Shown here: one piece after another, positions 41,143 through 45,066 of the stretch
How the letters are laid out: each line of letters starts with the position of its first letter
Position numbering within the stretch: the stretch's first letter is position 1
Notes under the pieces: generated by a model
What the model saw: only the letters and a program-made list of their open reading frames with translations
Databases searched by the model: none
Told to the model about the DNA's origin: nothing
Position numbers and translations under genes: made by a program
Source: Cokeromyces recurvatus
Lineage: Eukaryota > Mucoromycota > Mucoromycetes > Mucorales > Mucoraceae
DNA length: 64,000 nucleotides
Direction: 5' to 3'
NCBI RefSeq assembly: GCF_025118155.1
Contig: NW_026251415.1
Span: 273,426-337,425, forward strand

Positions 41143-41319
41143 TTACTTGAGTAAAGGGCAAGTAGGTCGTTTGTGGCCATATTTACCACACCAAGAGCTA
41201 TATTTTAATTAATAAAAGGATGAGTATATATATATAAAAAAAAGGTTGAAATTAAAATACCAAATCATTTTTTACCATTGACCACCTTGCAAGTTTAATG
41301 GTTTAATATATTGAGACAT
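41143..41319 (-). CDS. 32-aa CCHC zinc-knuckle microprotein, two exons
   Basis: Exons 41276..41319 and 41143..41197, with a 78-nt GT-AG intron (TG/GTAAAA to ATATAG/CT). The product starts MSQYIKPLNLQGGQ and continues CSWCGKYGHKRPTC, a perfect C-X2-C-X4-H-X4-C zinc knuckle with ligands Cys15, Cys18, His23 and Cys28, then PLLK and stop. The motif exists only after splicing, since Cys15 is split by the intron. A TATAAATA box lies about 95 bp upstream of the ATG, followed by a pyrimidine-rich leader, the usual promoter layout. Zinc knuckles bind single-stranded RNA or DNA; here the knuckle is the whole protein. It may be an exon pair of a longer gene, but a stop ends exon 2 in frame. Confidence 0.62.
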
Positions 41320-42249: not shown

Positions 42250-45066
42250 TTAAAGACAAAATCTATTTAAGATACCCATAATAATTAAAAAGGCAAAAGA
42301 CTTGATCCAATAATTGTTCATAAAGAAATGAAATAATCGTCTGTACCAGCAACGGCTTTTCTTTTCCATATTATATTCCCAATCATTAACTTCTTCTTCT
42401 TCTTCTGTTTCAAGATCAGATATATCGCATTGTGATTCTTTACTTGTAGTGGTTTCCTTCTTTTCGATAAAGGGCTGTAACACATTCTCCTCTGTTTGAT
42501 GAGTTGTAGGTAACAAAGGAACTGAATCCATCATTTTGGCTGAAGACGTAGTTTTGTTTTCTGATTTACAACATTTTTGAGCACCAGAGAGGATGGATCG
42601 TGTAATGAGATTTGTTGCTTGACCAAGGTAATAACAGATAAATAGAAAGAAAGTAGTAGATATCATCATATTGACCCACCAGCCTATTCTGGATTGAATA
42701 ACCCAATTTGCATTAGGTAAAACAATCAAGATACCACGCGTATCAGCAGCGAGCCACATATGAAATTGTCCAATAAATGTCTCCAACGAGATCTTCCCGA
42801 TGAATGCAAAGAAACGAGAATACGTATTTTGACTCCAGCTGGTAAAGTTACGAATGATAACGAAGGAAAGGATAGGGATCCAAGAGATATAAGGATGATA
42901 GATGACATAGGATGACTTGGTTTGTTTCAACTCAAACCAAAGGAACCAAGCCAGACCGATGATAGAGGCAATAAGAGAGATGAATTTAGAAAGAGACGAT
43001 AGACGCGGATAAGTGATGAGAAGACGGTGGTCAGATAGTTTAATCGTAATAAAGGCACAAAGCATACCTATGTAAACGATCCATGCATCAAGGGATAATC
43101 TAAATCGCCATTCTGTCACATTCCATTGAATATGAAATAAAAATTGAAGCACATTAAAAATAGATTCAAGTACACCAGGACAATGAATCACGATCCCTGT
43201 TATCACTGACATCGTCGCCATCTTGGTCAAGATAAACCAACTTTGATCATTATAACCCGACATCACTCTCATCGTGATCCAAATGATGATAAACCAAAAG
43301 CTAACTAAAGGAGAAAAGTAATAAAACAAGTAATTGGTCTTCATGACATAGGCAAGTACAAGCGTCAATAAATTTAAACGCACCAAGACATTCAAGATAC
43401 GTGTGATACTAAAATCTGCCTTCTTGTAAAAGAAATAAAAATGTCCATATCCAGTCTGAAAAAGATAAGCTGCAACGAGGACTCGAACTGGATTATAGAT
43501 ACCAGGGATTTGAGAGGCACCTACGAAATGATAAACCAAGATAACAAGTTGCATCCAACCTTTCCATTCATTCGTTTGGTCACGATTTAAAAAGTTGCTA
43601 TTAATAGCGGTTGAAGTAGTAGTAGTAGTATTACTTGCTTCTTTCTTATCATTTGTTTTCAATGTCACGATACCAAGGGTAAATAGGATAAAGATCAATA
43701 CGATAAATGTAAGACTATCAAACTGTTTAAACATTTTTCCAAATAATTGACTACGATCACAGATGTACATATAGAGGACAGCTAAACCAAAAATAAACAA
43801 TGAAGCAAGTGTTTGCATGTTTGAAGGAAATAAGATACGAATCATATTCATCATTGGTCCTGAATAAAATATATAAATAAATATTCAGAGGAAAAAAAAA
43901 GAAAAAAAATTAAAAGTAAAGCCTCTTACCACTACTAGAAGAAATAGACACTACTAAAAGGACAATAATCGGAATGATACATAAAAAGTAAATGAAAAAG
44001 AAAGTTTGATACCAAGCAGGTCTTGAATAGCTGGAACAACATGTTGTATCCAAGGGGGAGAAAAGAGTTGATGTTGTTGTCGATTTTAGATGTCTTTGGT
44101 CACTATTGCAACGATAATTTAAAGCTAATTGTGCCTGAGCTTTAGTCACTGGCTCTTTAAAATGGAGACCATCTAAAGTTTGGTTCCTTGAAGAGGTTAC
44201 TATTTTATTCCATACAAATGGTACTACTAAAGGTGTGACAAGATGTTCAGGAAGAGAACTCGATCTTTCTCGAAGATAATTATTCATGATTGTGATTTTA
44301 TCAAATGTTAAGGTGGCCTTCCTTTCTGGTATAAGTAAATCATATTCTACTATTTCCACTGGGGATAACATTAAATTGTCAGCTATTTTATAGACTTGAA
44401 CACTATCAAAGATTCGGTCCATAGCTGTCTTCCAACCACTTAGATAATTAGAACCTAAACGTCTCATGTACCAAACACCAGAACCCATAATTAGTAAACT
44501 TGGTTTCTCCGACTCTTTCCCTTGTAAAAGATGTAGCGTTCTTGAAGTATTCAAGAAGGGATCCCACCACATCTCTATCGTTATATTTTCAGATTTAGAA
44601 TAAGCTTGTTGATTAGCATGTATGGCTTCTTGATTTGGCTTCTTTAAATGTAAAAATTGCGTCATAGCGTAATACTGTTCTCTCATGATTGAATCTCCAA
44701 TATAAATTATACGTCTATGACCTAAACAACTTTTCATTTCTGAACTTCCATATGTTTTCGACATACAACCTGAAGGTTGCCATTGTTTATATTCCTCAGT
44801 CAACCATTTACCTTCAGTTAGCATACCATGGCACCGAGTATTATCCTTAGGATCTAAAGCAGAATAATAATAATAATAATAAAAAGGAGGGGGGTAGTGA
44901 TGGTGGTGAAGGAGAAATAATTAGATTATTAAAATTTTCTGTAATAAATGACGATCTTACTTTCTATATATCTTGTTATTGACAAAATGAAGATCACTAA
45001 TAATAGACTTGAAATCAATCCTCGTACAATAACACTACCTATTGATGTCTTTTCTTTTACAGTCAT
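42250..45066 (-). CDS. CAS1: CAS1-type polysaccharide O-acetyltransferase (SGNH + 10-TM acyltransferase)
   Basis: Exons 44961..45066, 43930..44853 and 42250..43859 give 879 aa. Order: N-terminal signal anchor (about 15-35, LISSLLLVIFILSI); a lumenal SGNH/PC-esterase-like domain with RIIYIGDS (nucleophile Ser90) and the catalytic Asp263-x-x-His266 (TLDGLHF); a TM link; then a ten-TM acyltransferase domain (WKGWMQLVILVYHFVGASQI, FLFICYYLG). This is the Cas1p/CASD1 architecture. Family role: O-acetylation of capsule glucuronoxylomannan in Cryptococcus and of sialic acid in animals, in the Golgi. In a mucoralean fungus the substrate could be a glucuronan or other wall polymer, which is inference. 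The C-terminal 100 residues are acidic and Ser-rich before a final hydrophobic helix. Confidence 0.92.

Follow-up and report, generated by a model that had tools for sequence, protein, structure and literature searches.

A predicted two-exon gene of Cokeromyces recurvatus for a conserved microprotein with a single zinc knuckle

We describe a short gene on the minus strand of a 64,000-nucleotide stretch of the Cokeromyces recurvatus genome (contig NW_026251415.1, positions 273,426 to 337,425; hereafter the window, in which position 1 is the first letter). An initial annotation, made from the sequence, had proposed here a spliced gene for a stand-alone CCHC zinc-knuckle protein of 32 residues. 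Comparison with homologues and with other copies in the same genome indicates that this is almost certainly a two-exon gene and a member of a conserved family; that its product is a genuine and strongly conserved microprotein is very probable. Taking all the evidence together, the explanation that we favour is a gene of this family whose knuckle works as a partner-binding module.

Results

The spliced gene

The spliced gene is 177 nucleotides (nt) long from ATG to stop and has 99 coding nucleotides. Its product, MSQYIKPLNLQGGQCSWCGKYGHKRPTCPLLK, has 32 residues and an estimated mass of about 3.6 kDa. It opens with a short clamp, IKPLNLQGGQ; one CCHC zinc knuckle, CSWCGKYGHKRPTC, comes next, and the last four residues, PLLK, form the tail. 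The zinc ligands are Cys15, Cys18, His23 and Cys28 (CX2CX4HX4C), exactly the residues named in the initial annotation. Re-reading of the sequence reproduced every coordinate that it had given for the minus-strand frame and its GT-AG intron, and a TATA-like element and a pyrimidine-rich leader lie upstream, where it had placed a TATA box and a pyrimidine leader (table 1).

The knuckle had been said to appear only after splicing, and the motif is indeed absent from all six unspliced frames of the window (0 matches to CX2CX4HX4C; shuffle mean 0.07). Without splicing, exon 1 reaches a stop after 15 residues (...GGQW). Spliced frames were also scanned for products of 20-60 residues with a GT-AG intron no longer than 120 nt and the motif spanning the junction; such a frame was found once in the window, at 41319-41143, and never in 30 dinucleotide shuffles. 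A chance frame was rejected on these grounds, and we consider the homologues and paralogous loci described below to be far stronger evidence against chance than the motif scan.

A family of single-knuckle proteins

Two profile searches covered 5.8 billion proteins. The family set comprises the proteins with an organism name at E <= 5.4e-10; those without such a name were used for read-through evidence only. The second search returned 72 proteins, and the 51 named members (P0001-P0026 and P0034-P0058) include a copy of the gene from the C. recurvatus genome itself (P0001, the C14 copy below). Counted from the printed names, they represent 33 species and 24 genera. All 51 are found in Mucorales or Umbelopsidales; the lineage was checked for Cokeromyces and Umbelopsis, and we assume the same placement for the other genera. 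Mucor plumbeus INT46_000427 (P0009), an annotated protein of 32 residues that represents a cluster of four sequences, is identical to the window protein over all 32 residues, and the 27-residue core recurs unchanged inside a longer frame of Thamnidium, P0013. The conservation in relatives on which the initial annotation depended is present. Its expectation that such a protein would be missed by length cut-offs holds less well: the relatives are annotated as hypothetical, uncharacterized or CCHC-type domain-containing proteins, so the family has not been wholly missed.

The pattern CX2CGX2GHX4C is found in all 51 named members and in the window protein. Several residues that are not ligands are equally constant: counted from the first Cys, Gln-1, Trp+2 and Leu+16 are present in 51/51 members, Tyr+6 in 50 and Lys+5 in 48. 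The residue directly after the first Cys is Ser or Thr, and not aromatic, in 48 of the 51. The knuckle lies at most six residues from the C terminus in 50 members; the last Cys is followed by three or four residues in 48 members, by five in one, by six in one and by 95 in P0038. We define the family by the core Q-C-x-W-C-G-x-x-G-H-x4-C-x-x-L (51/51), a clamp such as KPLNLxGG before it and a position near the C terminus, and the window protein fits this definition. From residue 5 onward, P0009 has a net charge of +5 and no acidic residue. P0038 was omitted from the alignment, and the Pfam scan and the nearest-structure, viral and prokaryote pattern searches thus rest on 50 of the 51 members.

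With the family as query, viral contigs gave 14 pattern stretches, none of them a relative, and neither of the two knuckle proteins compared has a family in PHROGs. Prokaryote contigs gave 41 pattern stretches; the candidates included an 11-residue match (82%, E 1e-5) in an Akkermansia contig, which was taken as chance. No paper on the family was found among those listed in the literature covered, most subscription journals being outside that coverage. Mucor circinelloides HMPREF1544_12387, reported as up 15.5-fold when Kog1 is knocked out and nitrogen is limiting (PMC13117352), bears the same database label as member P0021 and may be a family member.

Copies in the same genome

The genome assembly searched (28.05 Mb, 64 contigs; locus counts are lower bounds) holds at least three loci of the gene: that of the window, C14:63832 and C8:332480. 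The same set was obtained with the window protein or with a relative as query. At all three loci the codon of the first Cys is split by an intron in the same place and phase; at C14 and C8 (TG/GT...AG/T) this intron is 67 and 59 nt long, respectively. The modelled product has 58 residues at C14, where it is identical to the annotated C. recurvatus protein BX663DRAFT_516317, and 53 at C8, where the clamp has a different form, KPLDLSHGQ. In blastn the exons alone align between the three loci, and the flanks are without match. Elsewhere in the genome, zf-CCHC stretches gave 18 matches.

A comparison of synonymous and nonsynonymous differences, of the kind that the initial annotation had proposed for orthologues, was run between these paralogues over the 27 codons of the core. 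Between the window and C14 copies, 14 out of 17.0 synonymous sites and 4 out of 64.0 nonsynonymous sites are changed (synonymous sites saturated; nonsynonymous divergence, dN, 0.065). The corresponding counts are 14.5/17.0 and 9.5/64.0 for the window and C8 copies, and 8.5/16.7 and 11.5/64.3 for the C14 and C8 copies (synonymous divergence, dS, 0.85; dN 0.20), the ratios being rough because the core is very short. This pattern indicates purifying selection on the copies of the gene in this genome.

Traces of the intron in relatives

Fourteen proteins without organism name (sources lgn, ena and jgi) run from the clamp into ...GGQW, where 10 end and 4 continue; they were apparently called without regard to introns, a pattern that fits a donor at TG/GT in many species. 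P0074-P0076 are three further read-throughs of the GGQW type. P0027 is identical to the window for 14 residues from the window-type ATG and then has the Trp produced by reading through the donor. Together with the identical annotated protein of M. plumbeus and the shared intron place and phase of the paralogues, these read-throughs uphold the proposal of a stand-alone knuckle protein. Two read-throughs that concern exon 2, P0080 and P0081, have a Trp at the expected stop (CPLLKW and CPYLKSSW); the gene caller probably read TGA as Trp, and these genes may therefore stop at TGA.

Comparison with known zinc-binding domains

The family resembles the zf-CCHC knuckles (PF00098, PF14392 and PF16588; retroviral nucleocapsid, Lin28, TUT4/7, Air2 and Slu7) in its CX2CGX2GHX4C spacing, in both glycines and in weak similarity of profile and sequence and, without significance, of structure. 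It differs from them in that its knuckle is C-terminal and makes up nearly the whole protein, in having Ser or Thr instead of an aromatic residue after the first Cys together with an invariant Trp two residues after it, and in an N-terminal clamp such as KPLNLxGGQ. The window protein scores below the Pfam zinc-knuckle cut-offs (PF16588, 21.8 versus 26.2 bits; PF14392, 13.4 versus 27), as do the seven proteins of another scan, and in the Pfam scan of the 50 members the best E-value for the first member was 6.2e-5. The nearest solved sequences include gag/nucleocapsid, TUT7 and Lin28 knuckles, all at E >= 0.06 and not significant. Foldseek with an AlphaFold model gave 23 matches, none significant; from their titles we take most or all of them to be zinc-knuckle chains (Trypanosoma brucei RNase D, Lin28, retroviral nucleocapsid, TUT7, CLIP-170 and Slu7, among others). 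The single-knuckle family itself appears to be undescribed in the literature covered.

The C1 domain (PF00130) matches 25 of the 50 members at E <= 1. It has H-X2-C at the corresponding place and a second metal site, whereas the family has H-X4-C and one site. Assignment to it was rejected: the window protein reaches 19.7 bits against a cut-off of 26.5 and covers only profile positions 21-42 of 53.

A likeness of another kind is offered by the one-domain zinc-finger micro-proteins of Haloferax volcanii, in which a single zinc-finger domain forms the whole protein of under 70 residues and 12 of 16 deletion mutants are reported to have differed from the wild type in at least one condition (PMC6562870). 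These proteins are archaeal and are likened to ours by that description, not as a known part of the same sequence family.

Discussion

A proposed module for binding a partner

In the mechanism that we propose, splicing would complete the codon of Cys15, the first zinc ligand, and the peptide would then fold around one Zn2+ and act as a small soluble partner-binding module. Its target would be a single conserved one, either a protein from a complex that handles RNA or DNA or else a single-stranded nucleic acid, and docking would use the nearly invariant residues Gln14, Trp17, Lys20, Tyr21 and Leu31 as well as the KPLNL clamp. That the window protein binds zinc is very likely. Contact with nucleic acid has about an even chance, and we hold it to be likelier than docking on protein only.

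Docking on protein only, with the knuckle as a small subunit or adaptor that fits a conserved protein and makes no contact with nucleic acid, is nevertheless the strongest alternative, with a chance that is appreciable and short of even. The near-invariant residues beyond the zinc ligands are consistent with it, as is the replacement of the aromatic residue by Ser or Thr in 48 of the 51 members. The Foldseek matches, none of them significant, include a CLIP-170 knuckle bound to a CAP-Gly domain, and the knuckles of Air2, which dock on Trf4, provide an analogue for such a role. The basic core of the window protein fits nucleic acid at least equally, however, and the nearest solved sequences, at their non-significant E-values, include the gag/nucleocapsid, TUT7 and Lin28 knuckles.

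Certain observations weigh against the favoured reading of a two-exon family gene with a partner-binding knuckle, in one or another of its parts. The residue right after the first Cys is a base-stacking position, aromatic in retroviral and Lin28 knuckles; its replacement in the family cautions against the label of a retroviral-type RNA binder. The place of the intron is not fully constant. The protein P0059 (E 4.3e-9; without organism name), which likewise belongs to the family and resembles Umbelopsis P0017, carries a read-through insert after CSWC, and its intron would therefore lie in or beside the codon of the second Cys, a few bases beyond the Mucorales place. Judged from the protein, this seems to be a shift or an independent gain. 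Finally, the members range from 32 to 142 residues and the window form is the shortest, the other 50 having 45-142. This qualifies the proposal of the initial annotation that the knuckle is the entire protein.

Is the protein longer than 32 residues?

The sizes of the relatives raise the alternative that further coding exons lie upstream, the two exons being only the 3' end of a longer gene and the 32 residues a fragment, which we regard as improbable. In the other 50 members the part ahead of the first Cys exceeds that of the window form by 13-76 residues (by 17-35 in 42 of them). Moreover, a Cys at position 2 or 3 (MC.. or MxC..) is found in 18 of 50 members, where the Cys rate over the remainder of the N-terminal parts predicts 1.8; this count omits P0009, whose N-terminal part is too short, and is taken over related, hence not independent, proteins. 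The Cys, which the window protein lacks, may mark a second conserved element. The residues upstream look coding in Mucor lusitanicus P0003 and in P0028-P0031, which are close to it, and the longer forms are therefore probably real there.

Several findings argue against a truncated gene in the window. The frame above the ATG reaches a stop before any further ATG; the M. plumbeus annotation has the same 32 residues; and P0027, with its 14 identical residues from the ATG on, is unlike the window upstream of it. Both paralogues, as modelled, have their N-terminal extension inside the same exon. Of the 16 members with KPLNLQGGQ, 12 retain a Met at -13/-14 relative to the first Cys, against 2 of the 35 others (Met anywhere from -12 to -16), and a start at that Met may thus be commoner than the annotation says.

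Relatives of larger size were sought with a query of seven cores that admits proteins of about 108-343 residues, the other protein searches having covered 32-101 residues. It gave 11 matches. Sporodiniella P0038 (E 1.0e-8) and Rhizopus P0048 (E 6.1e-7) look like over-extended gene models, and the remaining nine (E >= 3.4e-4) comprise the read-throughs P0074-P0076, P0080 and P0081, three environmental proteins with twin knuckles (P0077-P0079) and P0082, whose knuckle looks unrelated. In this range of about 108-343 residues, no larger protein was found to carry the core and clamp as a domain. The environmental P0077-P0079 (180-284 residues) begin with two knuckles, CSWCGKYGHNRRGCP and CSYCxSTGHNRKTC, that are strikingly like the family core; they carry CSWCGKYGH and have no clamp. 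P0077 scored below every Pfam cut-off, and with it as query viral contigs gave two stretches, neither a relative.

An inhibitory microprotein, that is, a single domain competing with a larger paralogue that bears the same knuckle, would fit the small single-domain form. It is very improbable and was rejected: no larger relative with the core was found among proteins of about 108-343 residues, and the genome searches, whose counts are lower bounds, gave no locus beyond the three above, although the genome has other zf-CCHC stretches.

A retrotransposon gag remnant or a functionless transposon fragment can be practically dismissed: some weak matches outside the family are retroelement-like knuckles, and P0066 has DUF4283, a domain linked to retroelements, but the exons alone match between the three loci and not the flanks, the intron is fixed and the sequence is under purifying selection, and an identical protein is present in another genus. 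Membership of a gag polyprotein or of an element was rejected on the unmatched flanks and on the stop four residues after the last Cys.

Genomic context

The features of the locus are collected in table 1. A CAS1-like gene lies just upstream of the knuckle gene, on the same strand, at both the window and the C14 copies. Beside C14, its acyltransferase frame corresponds to L004:6414-7958 (47% identity) and its esterase-like frame to L004:5501-6556 (46%). The remaining matches between the C14 flank and the window are the knuckle exon, small frames antisense to the acyltransferase frame and one kinase-like match of 38 residues. Within the 20 kb around the C8 copy, no match to the window or to the C14 flanks was found in a comparison of stop-to-stop frames of at least 40 residues. 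We take the window and C14 copies as duplicates of one old block, for which a single shared neighbour is modest evidence.

Table 1. Features of the knuckle gene and its upstream neighbour (window positions).
Feature	Position	Strand	Description
Exon 1	41319-41276	minus	ATG to TG (reads ATG...CAATG); encodes MSQYIKPLNLQGGQ; its last two bases begin the Cys15 codon
Intron	41275-41198	minus	78 nt, GT-AG (GTAAAA...ATATAG), phase 2, in the codon of the first zinc ligand, Cys15
Exon 2	41197-41143	minus	CTCTTGG...AAGTAA; completes Cys15, encodes SWCGKYGHKRPTCPLLK and TAA
TATA-like element TATAAATA	41422-41415	minus	-103 from ATG; consensus match only
Pyrimidine-rich leader	41404-41339	minus	82% C+T from -85 to -20
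CAS1-like acyltransferase reading frame	42250-43884	minus	Upstream of the knuckle gene, same strand; PF07779, E 9e-118
Esterase-like reading frame	43910-44920	minus	PF24536, PF13839; counted with the acyltransferase frame as one CAS1-like neighbour

Significance

The intron interrupts the codon of the first zinc ligand, and the unspliced RNA would yield a peptide of 15 residues. More speculatively, and with a chance that we put rather low, this undescribed one-knuckle family could serve these fungi as a small subunit dedicated to a conserved machine that handles RNA or DNA, binding through a surface frozen throughout the group; the intron in the Cys codon would make metal binding depend on splicing and could be a switch. 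Since residues beyond the zinc ligands are frozen, a defined partner is to be expected. The gene is also an example of a spliced gene far under the usual length cut-offs. The size of the protein permits full chemical synthesis and study by nuclear magnetic resonance, and the family presumably has members in fungi used in laboratory work; the role of a lone zinc knuckle in a eukaryotic cell would be directly testable. A knuckle unit of about 28 residues appears to have been kept as a nearly whole protein across a large fungal group.
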